Assembly (NCBI RefSeq): GCF_003024805.1 | Contig: NZ_PUEC01000030.1 | Span: forward strand, 1-38,123 | Direction of reading: 5' to 3' | DNA length: 38,123 nt | Origin: Duncaniella muris | GTDB taxonomy: Bacteria; Bacteroidota; Bacteroidia; Bacteroidales; Muribaculaceae | In this document: one piece after another, positions 5,087-38,123 of the stretch | Numbering within the stretch: the stretch's first letter is position 1 | Layout of the letters: every line of letters begins with the position of its first letter | Position numbers and translations under genes: made by a program | The notes under the pieces: generated by a model | What the model saw: the letters and a program-made list of their open reading frames with translations, nothing else | Told to the model about the DNA's origin: nothing | Databases searched by the model: none

Positions 5087-5121
5087 CGGTGCTACGCGGT
5101 TCAAAACTCAACATCTAGAAA

Positions 5122-5737: not shown

Positions 5738-6496
5738 ATGTCACTGCCACGCCACAGAGTCTATGGCCTTATAGGCTTTCCCCTCACCCACTCCTTCTCA
5801 ATGAACTATTTCAACAACATGTTCGAGTCAGAAAATATCGACGCCGAATATGTCAATTTTGAAATACCGGAAATTGGCGATCTCATGGAGGTAATTTCTG
5901 AAAATCCGAATCTTTCAGGCCTCAACGTGACCATCCCTTACAAAGAGCAGGTCATCCCCTATATGAGCGAGATGGACACGGAAGCCGCTCATATAGGGGC
6001 TGTGAATGTCATAAAGATCATACGCGACAAAAACGGAGACATCCGGCTCAAAGGCTATAACAGCGATGCCATGGGATTCCAGAATTCTATCGCACCTCTT
6101 ATCAACCCCAAACGTAACCGGGCTTTGATACTTGGCACCGGGGGCGCATCAAAGGCTATCAACCGCGCCCTGATAAACCTCGGTGTCGAACCTGTCTTCG
6201 TGTCACGTACACCTGCAGAGGGTCAGCTTTCTTATGCTCAACTCACACCGGAAGTAATGGAAAGCCACAGGATCATAGTAAACTGCACCCCGCTGGGGAT
6301 GTATCCAAATGTTGACCGCTGCCCAGACATTCCTTATGATCTACTGACACCGGACCATCTTTGTTACGATCTGATCTATAACCCTGATGTCACTACATTC
6401 ATGAAAAAATCGCGCGCCTACGGAGCCGAAGTCAAAAACGGCCTTGAGATGCTCCTTCTCCAGGCATTCGAGTCATGGAACATCTGGAACATGTAA
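5738..6496 (+). CDS. aroE: Shikimate dehydrogenase
   Basis: AroE reduces 3-dehydroshikimate to shikimate with NADPH in aromatic amino acid and chorismate synthesis. The N-terminal substrate domain shows PLTHSFS (H18, S19, S21), NVTIPYKE with catalytic K69, GAVN with N90 and GYNSDA with D110. The nucleotide domain shows the glycine-rich LGTGGASKA (about 132-140), NCTPLGMYP and the closing NGLEMLLLQAFESW. The length of 252 is slightly short but complete, as is usual in Bacteroidetes. It sits 58 nt after the YcxB-like gene without an obvious promoter, so it is probably part of the same unit. Chorismate also feeds the pabABC genes further on. Confidence 0.95.
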   Translation: MSLPRHRVYGLIGFPLTHSFSMNYFNNMFESENIDAEYVNFEIPEIGDLMEVISENPNLSGLNVTIPYKEQVIPYMSEMDTEAAHIGAVNVIKIIRDKNGDIRLKGYNSDAMGFQNSIAPLINPKRNRALILGTGGASKAINRALINLGVEPVFVSRTPAEGQLSYAQLTPEVMESHRIIVNCTPLGMYPNVDRCPDIPYDLLTPDHLCYDLIYNPDVTTFMKKSRAYGAEVKNGLEMLLLQAFESWNIWNM

Positions 6497-6524
6497 ACAG
6501 TACACCTTCTCACTCTCCACGGTT

Positions 6525-8588
6525 TTGCCTCTCCCGCTCATTCCTCTTCTGCCATTTACCGTTGCGTTTATAACCGGTATCCTTCTGCAGGGGTGTGGTA
6601 TGGGCGGATTTTTTATGTTCCTACTTACAGCCGGAGCCTTCGCTGCGGCTGTTCTGCGCCGTTACAGCATCTCGATACTCCTGATCGCGATGACTCTTGG
6701 CTGCTTGGACAGCGAACTTCATGCTCCGCCGCAATTGCCTACGGAGTTCAGCCAACATTCATACTGCTTTTCAGGTGTCACCACTGAAGTACGCCGTTTC
6801 GAGCCCACACAGACTCTGATTGTCAAGATCGACTCCTGCAACGGCCACGCAATCCGGCCTTTCAGAGTCAAAGTCTCGGTGCCGTCATCAGTACCTACTG
6901 TCGATGAACGATGGCGCATACATTTTCCGGCAAAACTTGACAACATTGAATATGACCCAGATCTCCCAGATGAAATCGACTACAATTCATCTCTACGGCG
7001 CAGCGGAGTCATAGGCCAAGCATTGATTTCGCCTGACAGCCTCAGAATCATTCAGCCGGAGCCGGGACTTTTAAACACCATCCGCAGACAGCACGAAAAA
7101 ATCACACTCCTTATAGCTGCCTCAGCGCTGACTGACAAGACTCAGGGATTTCTGAACGCCGCTCTCACAGGAGACCGCTCAATGCTGACAGCAGAGACTC
7201 GCGAGATCTTTTCCATAACCGGGCTCTCTCACATACTGGCTCTCAGCGGGCTGCACGTAGGCATAATCGCACTTATAATTTCACTTGTACTTCTGCCTCT
7301 CCGACTTACCGGACTGAACAATCTACGCACAATACTCACAATAATCCTCCTGTGGATGTTCGCAATAATGACGGGACTGAGCCCGTCTGTGGTACGCGCT
7401 GTGATAATGGCATCGGTCCTTCTGATCTCCGCTATGCTCCAGCGGGTTCGCGCACCGTTCAACTCGCTATGCCTTGCAGCACTGCTGATATTACTTTTTA
7501 CTCCTCAGGCCATCTATTCGATCGGCTTCCAGCTATCTTTTCTTGCCGTTATATCCATATTGCTGTTTGCTGAGAAGATCAACCCGTTCAGCCGCCGCAA
7601 CGCCATAGCATACACTTTCGCCACATATCCGGCAGTAACTCTAGCCGCCCTGCTCGGAACCGGGATAGTCAGCGCTTACTATTTCAACATTATACCTGTC
7701 TATGCACTTCCTGTCAATTTCATCAGCGCGTTGCTGCTGCCGCTAATTCTTGGCGGTGGTATCGTACTTCTTTCAGCCAATGCCGCCGGCCTTCAATGGC
7801 TCTGGCTTGCAGACTGCGTTGACTCGCTTTACAGTATAATCCTCTCGGCCTCAACCTTTGCAAGCACCCTTCCCGGAGCTGTTGCCGACGGCATCCTACT
7901 CCACCCTTTCACTATAGCCGCATGGTTTGTCACTCTTGCAGCATTTGCCATCTGGCTCTACAGGCGCAGACCGGCCGGGCTCGCTGCAACAATTATGCTC
8001 TCAGTCTTCACCGTCTTCATCACGGCCTCATTCCGATGCAATGCCGGCCATGGCGCAGAACTCTACATTCCACGTACAGGCCGACAGACGTCAGTCATTA
8101 TACGCCATGACAATACTCTGGTCTTCGCCACAACAACCCGAAACCATGAATCCGGGGATATTATTGACAGTTATACACAAAAATACAGACTTTTCATGCT
8201 CAAACGTGGCATTGACTCAATACGCCAGCTCCCGGCTCATTGCCACTCCGGGCTGTTCTCCAGACACGACAACCTACTTACATTCCGGACTCATTCCGGC
8301 AGATCTACTTCCAGTTCCGCCGACAGCCTCTTGACAATTCTAATGGTTTACGACAAATCACATGTCTCTGACTGTGACCGACACATCAGCTATGCACTTG
8401 TGTGCAACGGTTTCCGCGGCGACATCAGAGATCTCGCCGCGGAGATCAGACCTGATACAATACTCCTTAGCGCCGATCTGAACCGCAGGCGACATGACCG
8501 CTACCGTCAGGAACTGACCGAAGCCGACATACCACACAGATCACTGCGCAACACTCCATTTTCAATAATCCTTAAGCCAATCCACTGA
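6525..8588 (+). CDS. comEC: ComEC/Rec2-family DNA uptake channel protein
   Basis: ComEC forms the inner-membrane channel for single-stranded DNA in natural transformation. The hallmark block GLSHILALSGLHVGIIALI is present, preceded by an OB-like extracytoplasmic region (about 65-200) and followed by many hydrophobic helices to about residue 520. The C-terminal 160 residues lie where a metallo-beta-lactamase domain occurs in some ComEC proteins, but no HxHxDH motif is visible. I chose TTG 6525, 28 nt after the aroE stop, because it leads straight into the first helix (687 residues). The ATG at 6444 lies within aroE. The start is uncertain. Confidence 0.85.
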   Translation: MPLPLIPLLPFTVAFITGILLQGCGMGGFFMFLLTAGAFAAAVLRRYSISILLIAMTLGCLDSELHAPPQLPTEFSQHSYCFSGVTTEVRRFEPTQTLIVKIDSCNGHAIRPFRVKVSVPSSVPTVDERWRIHFPAKLDNIEYDPDLPDEIDYNSSLRRSGVIGQALISPDSLRIIQPEPGLLNTIRRQHEKITLLIAASALTDKTQGFLNAALTGDRSMLTAETREIFSITGLSHILALSGLHVGIIALIISLVLLPLRLTGLNNLRTILTIILLWMFAIMTGLSPSVVRAVIMASVLLISAMLQRVRAPFNSLCLAALLILLFTPQAIYSIGFQLSFLAVISILLFAEKINPFSRRNAIAYTFATYPAVTLAALLGTGIVSAYYFNIIPVYALPVNFISALLLPLILGGGIVLLSANAAGLQWLWLADCVDSLYSIILSASTFASTLPGAVADGILLHPFTIAAWFVTLAAFAIWLYRRRPAGLAATIMLSVFTVFITASFRCNAGHGAELYIPRTGRQTSVIIRHDNTLVFATTTRNHESGDIIDSYTQKYRLFMLKRGIDSIRQLPAHCHSGLFSRHDNLLTFRTHSGRSTSSSADSLLTILMVYDKSHVSDCDRHISYALVCNGFRGDIRDLAAEIRPDTILLSADLNRRRHDRYRQELTEADIPHRSLRNTPFSIILKPIH

Positions 8589-26116: not shown

Positions 26117-26671
26117 CTACATCCGGGTTCTCACCAAGGTCAGAAAAGCGTAGCTTACGGATGTACGCGGGTCAGTATGTTCAAAAGTGATTGCATCCGG
26201 ATTAAAAGGCTGCAATCCGTGTTCTGTCCAGACTGACCATTCGGCCATTCCAAGTTTCGGAAAAAGAGTGTCAGCATCAGGTGCGACCGCGTCAATCAGA
26301 GTCAGTTCGATTCTGTCAGTCGTACTCAGAGCCTGACGATAGATCTCTCCACCACCTATAATATATGGCGCCGGGCTGTCAGGTCCACAAAGCGCAATCG
26401 CCTTCTCAAAAGAAGAGACTGCCTCGATGCCCGGAGCCTTATAAGCCTGATTGCGGGTCACTACAATATTGCGACGTCCTGGAAGAGCTCCTTTCGGAAA
26501 AGATTCGAATGTACGCCGCCCCATGATTATAGGATGTCCCATAGTGAGCGATTTGAATCTTTTCTGGTCTTCGCTTATATGATACAGCAGATCGCCGTCA
26601 CGCCCGATGGCGAAATCACGTGTGCATGCCACGATTATCGCAGGGGCTGAGATTGATGTCGGAACTGTCAT
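26117..26671 (-). CDS. folA: Dihydrofolate reductase
   Basis: FolA reduces dihydrofolate to tetrahydrofolate with NADPH, regenerating the cofactor used by ThyA. The 184-residue protein shows [29 protein letters not shown]. In this segment D35 aligns with the catalytic Asp27 of E. coli, and L29-Y30 replace the usual Pro-Trp of the Met20 loop. [27 protein letters not shown] and the NADPH-binding [12 protein letters not shown] follow. About 12 extra N-terminal residues precede the fold. The start overlaps the thyA stop by 4 nt, a classic thyA-folA arrangement. It is the last gene of the minus-strand unit. Confidence 0.95.
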
Positions 26672-27492: not shown

Positions 27493-29049
27493 TCAGGAGA
27501 TTCCGTTTACAACAATCGCTTTCGGTCGCGAGGGGCAGACATACTGACAAGCCCCGCAGCCTATGCAGCGGGAAGCATCCACAACCGGTAATGGCCCGTT
27601 ACAGCCGGAAGCCGGCGTCATGCTTATGGCATCGGCCGGACAGCGCCTTGAACATGCACCGCAGTTCACACCATCATTATAGGAAATACACAATGATCGG
27701 TCTACATCAGCAAGTCCTACCCGGCTACGGCGTTTCTCGGATATGGTCAACGGATGCAATGCCCCCGTGGGACACAGGTCGGCACATCGCGTGCAGTCAT
27801 AGATACACCATGACAGATCGTAGTCCTTTACGGGATGTAGTGCCCTGAGCAGACCATACTCCTCCAAAGATGCTTTAAGCACTCCCTGCGGGCAGTGACT
27901 GATGCAGAGTCCGCAAGAGGTGCATCGGTCAAGAAATTCCCGGCGGCTACGTACACCCGGCGGCGGCACTGCAAGCATACGGCGCCGTGGCGACACAAAT
28001 GCAAGCGCGTCAGCAGCCTTTGCCACCATAGGAGCCGCCGCGACAACAGCGCCCACAGTCAAAAATTTACGCCGGTCAAGTAGTTTCGGCTCTGTTACCG
28101 AAACTTCGCTCTTATCAGTTTTGTGACCGGAAACAGTCTCCAGATGCCCCCCCTGCATTCCGGCAGCCGATCCGGCAATCGGGTTGCGGACCTTCTGCAT
28201 CAGAGGGATTGACAGCTGATGACGGTTGAACGTATAACTTATCGCATCATTGGGACAATCAGAAAGACAATCAAAACAGACAACGCAGCGTGATGTATCG
28301 ACCACGTGACTGCTGAGATCAATACACGACGATTTACATCTATGCTCACACTTTCGACACTGAATACACTTGTCAGTATTGATATCGATATGAAAAATAG
28401 AATATTTTGAGACAAAACTCAGAGTTGTACCTACAGGGCATACAGAATTACACAGTGTACGTCCATGCAGAAATGCGATAAGGCCCACTATAAGCATAGT
28501 CACTACGGCAATCGAAATACCGAGACCGGAAGCCACGGCAACACGTAACTGCGGTTGCTTTTCAATTTCATACCAGGCATTCAGGATCTCACCCCAAATA
28601 GGCCTGACAACATTCAGGCCAAAGCGTCCGAAGACGCTATAAGGATCAAAAAATGATGTCACCGCTGAAATGCCAAGAAAGATCGAAAGTACCACAATAA
28701 ACAACGAAATGTGGCGCAATGAAGTGTGAGGCAAAGAATAATGATAGTGCCAGCGGGGCTTGACGCGCCTGCGCATACGGGGTAAACGGGAACAAAGATC
28801 CTGATATATACCAAGCGGACAGAATGTCGAGCAGTAAATTCGGCCAAAAAGCAGCGTCACGATAAGCCATATCACAAATGTAGCCAATGAGAATGCCATT
28901 GCCGCAGGAAATATCTGGACTTTGGCAAGCCATGAAGCCACAGCCGGTACTGTCTGCCCGTAATCGGCAAACAGGCCTACGAGCAGCGAAAAGACAACTA
29001 TCGCAACCAGAGTGCGCCCCAGGCGGAGACTATTGACAGACTTCTTCAT
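27493..29049 (-). CDS. NapH/NapG-like membrane polyferredoxin fusion
   Basis: The 518-residue protein joins two units. The first (about 1-300) resembles NapH: several helices with two C-x3-C-P motifs (CSTFCPLG, CNSVCPVG), then two ferredoxin clusters (CIQCRKCEHRCKSSC and CVVCFDCLSDCP). The second starts at an internal twin-arginine motif (DRRKFLTVGAVVAAAPMV, RR near 327), followed by four cysteine clusters (CTSCGLCISHCP, CIYDCTRCADLCP, CGACSRRCP, CIGCGACQYVCP), as in NapG. No NapA, NapB or other terminal reductase is nearby. It overlaps the Tat ferredoxin gene upstream by 4 nt. It probably moves electrons from the quinol pool to a periplasmic acceptor, which is not identified. Confidence 0.85.
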   Translation of the reverse strand: MKKSVNSLRLGRTLVAIVVFSLLVGLFADYGQTVPAVASWLAKVQIFPAAMAFSLATFVIWLIVTLLFGRIYCSTFCPLGIYQDLCSRLPRMRRRVKPRWHYHYSLPHTSLRHISLFIVVLSIFLGISAVTSFFDPYSVFGRFGLNVVRPIWGEILNAWYEIEKQPQLRVAVASGLGISIAVVTMLIVGLIAFLHGRTLCNSVCPVGTTLSFVSKYSIFHIDINTDKCIQCRKCEHRCKSSCIDLSSHVVDTSRCVVCFDCLSDCPNDAISYTFNRHQLSIPLMQKVRNPIAGSAAGMQGGHLETVSGHKTDKSEVSVTEPKLLDRRKFLTVGAVVAAAPMVAKAADALAFVSPRRRMLAVPPPGVRSRREFLDRCTSCGLCISHCPQGVLKASLEEYGLLRALHPVKDYDLSWCIYDCTRCADLCPTGALHPLTISEKRRSRVGLADVDRSLCISYNDGVNCGACSRRCPADAISMTPASGCNGPLPVVDASRCIGCGACQYVCPSRPKAIVVNGIS

Positions 29050-29510
29050 TTTTCAAGACAACGAAGATTACGTACCAGATCGGTCAAGGCTGTGATCTGC
29101 GCCATGCGACGCGGTATGTCGATGTGGTCGGGACACATCGGCAGACACTGGCCACAGTTTATGCAGTGCTGGGCCTGCTGAGGATCGGGGATACTGTTAC
29201 AGAAACGGTCAAAGAAAATATCAGCCTTGGATTTGAAATCCTGATCGTCAAGCTCACCGGGAAGATAGCCGCGATACCGGGCCTGATCTACAAAAATAAG
29301 ATTGTCAGGGATGTTGATGCCATACGGACAAGGCATACAGTTGTCACAGGCCACACAGTCAATCTGGCTGATAGGTTCATAAGCATCAGCCACACGCGGC
29401 GAAACGTTCTCTACCTCGGCAAGAGCTTCCGGACGCGTCCCACACGAAGTGAAGGCCATCGAGCCAAAAGCGATTCCGCCTACACGGCCAAGCCATTGCC
29501 GGCGGTTCAT
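29046..29510 (-). CDS. Tat-type ferredoxin lipoprotein, aldo/keto-reductase C-terminal type
   Basis: The 154-residue product starts with NRRQWLG and a hydrophobic stretch ending in the lipobox-like FTSC (C23), so it is probably exported by Tat as a lipoprotein. The rest carries two cysteine sets, [17 protein letters not shown] and [18 protein letters not shown]. These match by eye the iron-sulfur tail found behind the barrel of COG1453 aldo/keto reductases; the barrel itself is missing. The start ATG 29510 overlaps the ispF stop by 4 nt, and the stop overlaps the polyferredoxin start by 4 nt. Function is unknown; an electron carrier for its neighbour is my inference. Confidence 0.8.
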
Positions 29511-30001
29511 TCTCTGCATGATCCGGAGTCTGATAGGGTTGCTACAGCTAAAGCCGAAATTCCCTCGCCACGGCCTTCGAACCCAAGACGTTCGGTAGTG
29601 GTGGCCTTGACAGAGACGCAACGAGAGGGGATATCCAGATCTGAAGCGACATTTTCAATCATCTGAGGAATGAATGTCAGAAGTTTCGGGCGCTGGGCCA
29701 CAATTGTCACATCTACGTTGTTGATAGAAAAACCCTCTCCGACAATCAGCTCGACCACACGTCGCAGAAGCACACGCGAGTCTGCTCCGGCATAAGTCTG
29801 GTCTGTGTCAGGAAAATGATAGCCTATATCACGCATGGCTGCTGCTCCAAGAAGAGCGTCAGCCAAAGCATGAAGGGCTACATCGGCATCACTATGACCG
29901 AGAAGCCCTTTTTCATAAGGTATTTTTACACCGCAGAGTATAAGATCGCGATTGTCTGTCAGACGATGAACGTCATAACCCATTCCGGTACGTATCATCA
30001 T
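29507..30001 (-). CDS. ispF: 2-C-methyl-D-erythritol 2,4-cyclodiphosphate synthase
   Basis: IspF forms the cyclic diphosphate intermediate of the MEP isoprenoid pathway. From ATG 30001 it is 164 residues long, the family norm, with metal ligands D10, H12 (GYDVHRL) and H44 ([14 protein letters not shown]), [22 protein letters not shown] and the final [26 protein letters not shown] 29998 is an equal alternative; an ATG at 30025 would add eight residues and overlap porV. It sits between a type IX secretion porin and iron-sulfur genes, an arrangement with no obvious pathway logic beyond shared transcription. Confidence 0.96.
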
Positions 30002-35303: not shown

Positions 35304-36650
35304 ATGAAAAGAGTTTATACATTTGGAGACGGCAAAGCAGAAGGCAATGCCTCCATGCGCAATCTCCTCGGCGGCAAAGGCGCGAACCTCGCCGAAATGA
35401 ACCTTCTCGGCATGCCGGTGCCTCCCGGCTTCACTATCACAACCGAAGTCTGCACCGAGTACACCCAGTATGGCCGTGACAAAGTTGTCAAAGATCTTAC
35501 TGCAGAAGTTCAGGCCGCAATTGCTCACGTCGAGCAGCTCACCGGCAAAAAATTCAACGATCCTGAGAACCCGCTTCTCGTGTCAGTACGCTCAGGTGCC
35601 CGCGCATCAATGCCCGGCATGATGGACACCGTCCTCAACCTCGGCATGAACGACGCTACAGTTGAATCTCTCGCCAAAAAGAGCGGCAACGCCCGTTTCG
35701 CATGGGACAGCTACCGTCGTTTCGTACAGATGTATGGCGATGTTGTGCTCGGCATGAAGCCCAAAAGCAAAGCTGACATAGATCCCTTCGAAGAAATCAT
35801 GGACAAGGTCAAGGAAGAAAAAGGCGTCAAACTTGACACCGAACTTACCGTGGAAGACCTCCAGAACCTTGTGAAACTCTTCAAAGCCGCTGTAAAGGAA
35901 TACACAGGCAAAGACTTCCCCAATGACGCCTGGGAACAGCTTTGGGGCGGCATCTGCGCCGTGTTTGACAGCTGGATGAACGAACGTGCAATTCTCTACC
36001 GTCGCATGAACCAGATCCCCGAAGAATGGGGCACAGCCGTCAACGTACAGGCAATGGTCTATGGCAACATGGGCGACAACTCAGCCACAGGCGTGGCATT
36101 CAGCCGTGACGCAGCAACCGGCGAAAATATCTTCAACGGCGAATACCTCATCAACGCCCAGGGCGAAGACGTGGTCGCCGGTATCCGCACCCCCCAGCAG
36201 ATCACAGTAGAAGGCTCACGCCGCTGGGCCGCCCTCCAGGGCATCAGCGAAGAAGTGCGCGCTGAAAAATATCCTTCACTCGAAGAATCAATGCCCGTCT
36301 GCGCCGCCGAGCTCATCGCAATAGCAGGCCGTCTTGAAAACTACTACAAAGACATGCAGGATATGGAATTCACCATCCAGGACGGCAAACTCTGGATGCT
36401 CCAGACCCGCAACGGCAAACGCACAGGCGCTGCAATGGTAAAGATCGCTATGGACCTTCTCCGCGCAGGCGAAATCGATGAAAAAACCGTGCTCAAGCGC
36501 ATGGAACCGCAGAAACTCGATGAACTCCTCCACCCCGTGTTCGACAAAGCAGCACTCAAGCGCGCAGAAGTCGTGGCAAAGGGTCTTCCCGCATCTCCCG
36601 GCGCAGCCGCCGGCCAGATCGTATTCTCGGCTGAAGAAGCAGAAGCCTAG
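35304..36650 (+). CDS. ppdK: Pyruvate phosphate dikinase, N-terminal part up to an in-frame TAG
   Basis: This is the ATP-grasp half of PPDK, which interconverts pyruvate, ATP and phosphate with PEP, AMP and diphosphate. The 448 residues begin [15 protein letters not shown] and contain [82 protein letters not shown] and [18 protein letters not shown]. The frame stops at TAG 36648-36650 in the linker before the phosphohistidine domain, and the same frame continues to 38018. The ATG 35304 is the family start; a TTG at 35208 lies in the promoter. Alone this piece lacks the catalytic histidine and could not complete the reaction. Confidence 0.9.
36648..36650 (+). other. In-frame TAG inside ppdK
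   Basis: The codons read GAA GCC TAG AGT GAA, between AEEAEA and [19 protein letters not shown]. Coding quality and codon use are the same on both sides. From memory, Bacteroidales homologues often have Trp here; TGG to TAG is one transition. Sequencing error, recent mutation and readthrough all remain possible. Confidence 0.9.
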
Positions 36651-38018
36651 AGTGAAAAGAAACGCAAAGTCGTGCTCGTCCGCATCGAGACATCTCCTGA
36701 AGACCTCCGAGGTATGGCCGTAGCACAAGGTATCCTCACAATGCGCGGCGGTATGACATCTCACGCAGCCGTAGTAGCCCGCGGTATGGGCAAATGCTGT
36801 GTGTCAGGTGCAGGCGAAATCCGTGTCGACTACAAAGAAAAAACAGTTGAGATGGGCGGCAAAGTCTACAAAGAAGGTGACTGGATCTCACTCAACGGCT
36901 CGACTGGAGAAGTTTACAACGGCCAGGTTCCCACAACCGAACCCGAACTCGGCGGCGACTTCGGCGCAATCATGAATCTTGCGTCCAAATACACCAAGAC
37001 ACTCGTCCGCACTAACGCAGACTCACCCCGCGACGCAAAACAGGCCCGCCACTTCGGCGCACAGGGCATCGGTCTCTGCCGCACAGAACACATGTTCTTC
37101 GAAGGCGACCGCATCAAAGCTGTACGCGAAATGATCCTCGCATCTGACGAAGAAGGCCGTCGAGTAGCCCTCGCCAAACTCCTTCCGATGCAGCGTGGCG
37201 ACTTCGAAGGCATCTTCGAAGCTATGGACGGCTACGGAGTGACCATCCGCCTCCTCGATCCCCCCTTGCACGAATTCGTACCCCACCAGACCGCCACTCA
37301 GAAGGTAATGGCCGAAGAAATGGGCATCACCCTCGAAGAAGTAAAGGCCAAGGTTGACTCACTTGAAGAATTCAACCCGATGCTCGGCCACCGTGGCTGT
37401 CGTCTCGGCATCACCTACCCCGAAATCACCGAGATGCAGACCCGCGCCATCATCGAAGCCGCCCTCGCAGTCAAAGCCCGCGGAATCGACGTGCACCCCG
37501 AAATCATGATTCCTCTCGTAGGCTCACTCAAGGAAATCCAGAACCAGGCCGACGTGATCAACATCACAGCAGCCAAGGTATTCGAAGAAACCGGCCAGAG
37601 CGTACCCTACAAAGTAGGAACAATGATCGAAGTGCCCCGTGCAGCCCTCGTTGCCAACCAGATCGCTGAAGTTGCCGACTTCTTCTCATTCGGCACAAAT
37701 GACCTCACCCAGATGACCTTCGGCTTCTCTCGCGATGACGCACCCAAGTTCCTCAAATTCTACAAGGAACACGGCATCATCAAGACCGATCCCTTTGAAG
37801 TACTCGACCAGGAAGGCGTAGGCCAGCTCGTCAGAATGGGCGTTGAAAAAGGACGTGCCACCAAACCCGAACTCAAAGTAGGTATCTGCGGCGAGCATGG
37901 CGGCGAACCTTCATCAGTCAAATTCTGCGCCAAACTCGGCATGAACTACGTCAGCTGCTCACCCTACCGTGTGCCCATCGCCCGCGTAGCCGCTGCTCAG
38001 GCTGCCATCGAAGAGTAA
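36651..38018 (+). CDS. ppdK: Pyruvate phosphate dikinase, C-terminal part after the TAG
   Basis: This half holds the swivelling phosphohistidine domain, with the catalytic His in [24 protein letters not shown], and the PEP/pyruvate barrel. The barrel shows [66 protein letters not shown] and [10 protein letters not shown] with its catalytic cysteine. It ends in [22 protein letters not shown] and TAA. With the first half and one residue for TAG the chain would be 904 residues, about the length of Bacteroides PPDK. If translated separately, GTG 36672 is the nearest candidate start, without a clear ribosome site. Confidence 0.88.
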
Positions 38019-38043
38019 GACATAACGTAACATAATCCGATAG

Positions 38044-38084
38044 TTAGGCTGTAACGCTTTGAGAAATCAGGCGTTACAGCCTAA
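38044..38084 (+). terminator. Terminator after ppdK
   Basis: A perfect 14-bp stem, TTAGGCTGTAACGC (38044-38057) with its reverse complement at 38071-38084, encloses a 13-nt loop. Only a mixed T-rich stretch (GTTATTCTT) follows. It starts 25 nt after the ppdK stop. Confidence 0.7.
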
Positions 38085-38123
38085 GTTATTCTTAGGAGGT
38101 TTGTGCATTTGGCGTCACTTTGT

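Follow-up and report, generated by a model that had tools for sequence, protein, structure and literature searches.

The closest described counterpart of the gene analysed here is the PPDK of C. symbiosum (PDB 1kbl). The central domain of PPDK is represented alone by PDB 2FM4 and acts via a phosphohistidine intermediate (PMC5371819), and the enzyme is reversible, its working direction varying among bacteria (PMC8100219). According to PMC12167813, the ATP-grasp domain of HpeHI is one protein while the swivel and substrate domains are the other, and CreHI and the phenylphosphate synthase PpsAB require two components as well. Additionally, the 3' end of ppdK is a known integration site, in which PvCTn-like conjugative transposons use a 20-bp sequence as attB and the stop codon is restored (PMC11005914). 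The deamination hotspots at the 5-methylcytosines of Dcm/EcoRII also form a known system (PMC3527292, PMC8350357).

The ppdK gene reported here shares its three-domain order and catalytic motif with the C. symbiosum enzyme, and differs from it by a TAG at codon 449, where the aligned C. symbiosum residue is Ala. As written, it resembles HpeHI, CreHI and PpsAB in having related ATP-grasp/swivel machinery spread over two polypeptides; unlike HpeHI, whose split falls between the ATP-grasp and swivel domains, it is broken at residue 449, within the domain formed by residues 416-542. The TAG looks like a very recent, ordinary mutation or an error in the sequence, and not like a new mode of decoding the gene or of dividing it.

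Structure of ppdK and position of the TAG codon

The window, i.e., the whole stretch of DNA analysed (38,123 bases), is an entire contig (C24) of a draft genome of 79 contigs and 3.27 Mb. In this record ppdK occupies positions 35304..38018 of the + strand, from an ATG start at 35304 to a TAA ending at 38018, and consists of 904 codons plus the terminal TAA. Its translation reads TAG at codon 449 (36648-36650). The frame is otherwise free of stops between 35304 and 38018, as the original prediction had stated in calling this codon the lone defect. The assignment of both halves to PPDK was equally sound, with PF01326 in the first and PF00391 and PF02896 in the second; when the TAG is read over, ppdK as one frame scores 1350.8 bits against the TIGR01828 cut-off of 843.45. 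The features of the gene are as follows.

35304..36647, + strand: ppdK codons 1-448; ATP-grasp (nucleotide-binding) domain, linker and first ~33 residues of the swivel domain; PF01326 at residues 20-387
36549..36929, + strand: phosphohistidine swivel domain, interrupted by the TAG; residues 416-542, as delimited by the phmmer match to PDB 2fm4 (128 aa)
36648..36650, + strand: in-frame TAG, codon 449, within the predicted swivel-domain helix 443-451
36651..38015, + strand: ppdK codons 450-904; remaining swivel domain and PEP/pyruvate-binding domain; PF00391, PF02896
36672..36674, + strand: GTG, first start-type codon 3' of the TAG; possible reinitiation point, its use unsupported by evidence
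36714, 36741, 36753 and 36786, + strand: later in-frame ATGs 3' of the TAG; possible reinitiation points, likewise of unsupported use
36762..36764, + strand: codon of His487, presumably the catalytic His, 3' of the TAG; placed by translation and alignment to C. symbiosum PPDK 1kbl

The intact PPDK of the sister genome (G025) aligned nearly end to end with 1kbl, in two stretches. His487, which we take to be the catalytic His of PPDK, is invariant in the PPDK alignment and sits within a 14-residue motif. In the sister protein, PDB 2fm4 aligned to residues 416-542, and the AlphaFold model of this protein (mean pLDDT 81.9, 27 sequences) places residue 449 in a helix (443-451) that is flanked by strands 434-440 and 456-460. 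In this model the TAG would cut the first long helix of the swivel domain, upstream of His487. Its earlier placement in the linker between the ATP-grasp and phosphohistidine domains must therefore be corrected, since residue 449 lies inside the 2fm4-matched domain; that the Pfam core PF00391 begins only at residue 454 may explain it. A product ending at the TAG would consequently lack the catalytic His, and one made downstream of it would be missing the opening strands of the carrier domain along with the greater part of its first long helix. As written, no single chain holds the ATP-grasp, complete phosphohistidine and PEP-binding domains together, because the TAG divides them.

A PF00391 profile search of the genome matched only ppdK, which answers in the negative the question of a second copy. 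The only other PF01326 match, on contig C45, was rejected as a backup ppdK given that PF00391 had no second match in the genome. This match (PPDK_N, ATP-grasp) is a 981-aa ORF on the minus strand (L178, 1538-4483) that has no PF00391 match and whose N terminus resembles, by eye, a response regulator. The plasmid search returned short matches only, in 7 records, none covering more than 10% of the query (80-90% identity). In the literature, we found no report of a nonsense mutation in Bacteroides PPDK nor of one in Muribaculaceae ppdK.

Codon 449 in relatives and constraint on both halves

The search of the genus covered 27 genomes, including this one, of which 19 matched with its own copy counted. 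Trp in the column of codon 449, together with a single open frame, was found in 18/18 of the other same-genus copies examined, so that the alignment of related PPDK called for by the original prediction gave a sense codon and open genes. Two further genomes of the genus (G010 and G022) had weaker ppdK matches in the family search and their codon was left out of the 18-copy count. The species itself was sampled by one genome. Another same-genus genome, 99% complete (G019), yielded no ppdK match in either the protein or the family search, which may be a true loss or an assembly gap.

At the level of the family, the TIGR01828 search matched 335 of 397 genomes and 211 of the 222 of good quality; absence from the other 11 good-quality genomes may also be caused by assembly gaps. 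Among the matches listed (150 places, counted by hand), the ppdK of the window was the only one with a stop. The residue at codon 449 varied in 80 wider loci: Trp in 33, Ala in 14, Phe in 7, Leu in 5, Tyr and Gln in 4 each, and Met, His, Arg, Glu, Lys or Ile in the remainder, with indels just after the position. This variety indicates that the position itself is tolerant.

The two halves of the gene have been constrained alike. Compared with the sister, the N half showed 1.0 non-synonymous and 52 synonymous differences and the C half 1.0 and 57, respectively, with a dS of about 0.20; over the 455 aligned residues of the second half the identity was 99.78% (100% when rounded). One of the two non-synonymous differences is the last residue of the protein, beside the junction of the element described below. 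On an unconstrained own branch about 211 non-synonymous changes are predicted, against 2 observed, and therefore a stop that released ppdK from selection could be no older than ~3% of the branch. The absence of decay since the lesion fits equally a very recent stop, a stop absent from the organism, or harmless readthrough. A single lesion, intact relatives and no decay after the lesion are the traits of a recent nonsense allele.

Sequence context of the stop and the 3' end of ppdK

The tetranucleotide CTAG is about 44-fold under-represented in this genome (14 found versus 613 expected in 398 kb), and the TAG at codon 449 creates one, at 36647. This rarity is as expected if the CTAG of ppdK is new. 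The sister had 0 CTAG in 26 kb and 17 other loci of the genus had 2 versus 76 expected. In a 109.6-kb alignment there were 6 CTAG in this genome and 1 in the sister; 2 of the 6, that of ppdK included, read CCTGGA in the latter. CTAG was denser in the window (5 in 38 kb, at 5115, 7641, 12691, 23767 and 36647) than elsewhere (9 in 360 kb), with a Poisson p of 0.003 obtained post hoc; this local density weighs against a recent nonsense allele.

The sister sequence across codon 449 is CCTGG, a CCWGG motif. In this regard, the genome encodes a C5-cytosine methyltransferase that shares 49% identity with E. coli Dcm over 374 aa, and next to it on contig C7 lies an endonuclease with both EcoRII domains (EcoRII-N, PF09019, E 1.7e-62; EcoRII-C, PF09217, E 2.3e-27), i.e., the gene pair of an EcoRII-type restriction-modification system.

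L177 (C7:61000-76000), 5755-6945 and 6929-8218, minus strand: EcoRII-like restriction-modification pair

From these genes, the genome probably methylates CCWGG. The methyltransferase had no match in the 95%-complete sister, matches in other genomes of the genus were at most 52% identical, and Vsr had no match in this genome. The changed base pairs with the second C of CCWGG on the opposite strand, the one predicted to be methylated, and deamination of this minus-strand C would yield exactly this TAG. The amber hotspots of lacI are the classic case of 5-methylcytosine deamination, and CCWGG is the specificity of EcoRII. The locus resembles those hotspots in that the changed site lies in CCWGG, an EcoRII-like pair is encoded and Vsr was undetected. 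It differs from them in that changes at CCWGG were not in significant excess and in that methylation is predicted here from genes. The comparison with the sister, made over 20 kb and then over 109.6 kb of alignment, gave 5-methylcytosine-type changes toward this genome at 7/123 CCWGG sites versus 4/115 in the reverse direction (Fisher p 0.54) and versus 4/188 at the CCSGG control (p 0.12, no significant excess), while the GC[AT]GC control, with 22/340 sites changed, was as high as CCWGG. Few events would be expected if the EcoRII system was acquired recently, and CCWGG was barely depleted in the genome sequence. About 7 of 51 possible stop-creating transitions in ppdK fall at CCWGG sites (the 7 counted in the sister gene, the 51 in this one), which makes the coincidence a weak one. 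Deamination at a site methylated by the organism's own EcoRII-like enzyme is a possible but unproved origin of the TAG.

At the other end of the gene, the contig finishes 105 bases past the ppdK stop codon (38018 to 38123) and a putative attachment site was located just before that stop codon.

37992..38011, + strand: 20-bp copy of the PvCTn-like ppdK attachment site, likely attL; 1 mismatch to the published motif

A second copy, with 0 mismatches, was found near the end of contig C45 (L196, C45:110001-125384, reverse strand from about 126); behind it comes what looks like a native ppdK tail. C45 is the next syntenic contig, adjacent in the sister genome, and the two copies stand at facing contig ends; the sister has a single copy in the corresponding stretch. 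The site is thus duplicated, once in the window and once on C45, as for a PvCTn-like element. The simplest reading of these sequences is that an integrative element sits at the 3' end of ppdK, starts at attL and runs off the contig. It is probably PvCTn-like, is recognised here by its att sites, and likely causes the contig break. The locus agrees with PvCTn elements in the imperfect 20-bp duplicate and in the ppdK stop codon right after the site; by comparison with PvCTn, its integrase and transfer genes would be located beyond the stretches covered here. This duplication would extend the known integration site to a family unnamed in the main text of PMC11005914. The element is ~1.3 kb from the TAG and leaves it unexplained.

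Explanations for the TAG and their consequences

With slightly better than even confidence, we regard the gene as an ordinary PPDK gene with a very recent nonsense substitution, acquired by the strain or its immediate ancestors. This reading is favoured by the Trp of all 18 genus copies and by the stop being the sole one among the family matches listed. The principal rival, less probable but of real weight, is that a base-call, assembly or binning-consensus error placed the TAG in the record only, the organism carrying an intact ppdK. All codons except one are as in an intact gene and the halves are equally constrained, both of which would follow from such an error. Moreover, nanopore basecallers miscall methylated CCWGG, which this genome probably contains; in a K. 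pneumoniae nanopore benchmark with default models, ~70% of consensus errors lay in Dcm motifs (PMC6591954). However, the data do not resemble uncorrected nanopore sequence. Between 17721 and 38020 (20.3 kb) none of the 13 gene frames tested against the sister had an indel, so the assembly is not visibly error-rich, and ppdK alone among the 13 was interrupted by a stop in this genome. The sister itself had one internal stop in an ORF at 29046-29621, as delimited by hand. A scan for split genes over 398 kb of the 3.27 Mb (a lone stop flanked by two coding-like segments, each no shorter than 80 codons, with score filters) printed 9 sites, and only in ppdK does the protein plainly continue past the stop. 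The other 8 were rejected by eye as neighbouring genes; the one at L151:7610 was judged to be where the next gene begins, a gene that reads like Ffh, presumably with a non-ATG start. The lone stop, the missing indels and the CCWGG counts given above leave systematic nanopore miscalls unsupported. The 79 contigs and a contig end at a probable mobile element have the look of short reads, for which consensus substitution errors would be rare.

The remaining explanations suppose that the TAG is real and that PPDK is nevertheless made. Tolerated or programmed readthrough, decoding the TAG at some rate into full-length PPDK and perhaps tuning its amount, is unlikely. In its favour, many inserted amino acids could work at a position so tolerant in the wider loci, constraint 3' of the TAG is undiminished, and the TAG is followed by A, a permissive readthrough context in E. 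coli. Against it, the stop is conserved in 0/18 of the other genus copies, occurs in 1 of the 150 family places listed (that of the window), and forms part of a CTAG, a tetranucleotide that is strongly avoided here. The prfA gene (RF1) is open (456.7 bits) and a CUA anticodon was found in 0 of the 47 tRNA genes detected, all read with ARAGORN, a set that is probably incomplete, none being labelled tRNA-Ile; amber suppression, as offered by the original prediction, thus lacks its carrier. A particular form of this idea, in which the TAG is real and, through the recent acquisition of an EcoRII methyltransferase, a core metabolic enzyme of this lineage has come to be made at low dose under the control of leaky decoding, is more doubtful still. 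Very improbable, too, is an enzyme of two assembling chains, the second reinitiated at the GTG at 36672 or at a later ATG. Both halves are under constraint, the GTG begins 21 bases after the TAG and two-subunit dikinase relatives exist (HpeHI, CreHI, PpsAB; PMC12167813). Nevertheless, the HpeHI split keeps the swivel domain whole, while here the cut is within a helix and not at a natural domain boundary, and all the relatives seen are unsplit. Genome-wide reassignment of TAG to an amino acid can practically be dismissed: only the single codon itself speaks for it, and RF1, the tRNA set and the lack of any second TAG-interrupted gene in the 398-kb sample are joined by TAG ending 15 of the 169 mechanical ORFs of at least 300 aa in that sample (first half of ppdK included). 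A minus-strand ORF at 26117-26671, probably the one that the original prediction called hisIE, does end in TAG here and in the sister. The doubt of the original prediction about wholesale reassignment holds; of its four options, the very recent null allele and the base-call or assembly error remain, while amber suppression and the two-chain enzyme found no support.

Under a very recent nonsense allele, a single substitution would have arisen in ppdK and the ribosome would halt at codon 449, freeing a fragment that carries the ATP-grasp domain and a truncated part of the swivel domain. This fragment would have neither the catalytic His nor the PEP-binding domain, and PPDK activity would be lost or reduced to trace readthrough. 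Meanwhile, the cell could rely on pyruvate kinase and PEP carboxykinase at the PEP node. The pckA gene, whose presence the original prediction had proposed to check, and pyk are both present as open frames free of stops, and together with the reversibility of PPDK this makes the loss plausibly non-lethal. Loss of ppdK seems survivable, with 11 of the 222 good-quality family genomes having no match. We infer in this manner the presence of the TAG in the organism, the loss of activity and its tolerance by the cell.

If the TAG is an error, the case is a caution against concluding from a single codon that a gene is lost. The EcoRII pair, for its part, offers a testable route of mutation. If the stop is real, this strain would be without an enzyme matched in 211/222 good-quality genomes of its family, and it would constitute a natural test of the dispensability of PPDK beside pyruvate kinase and PEP carboxykinase.
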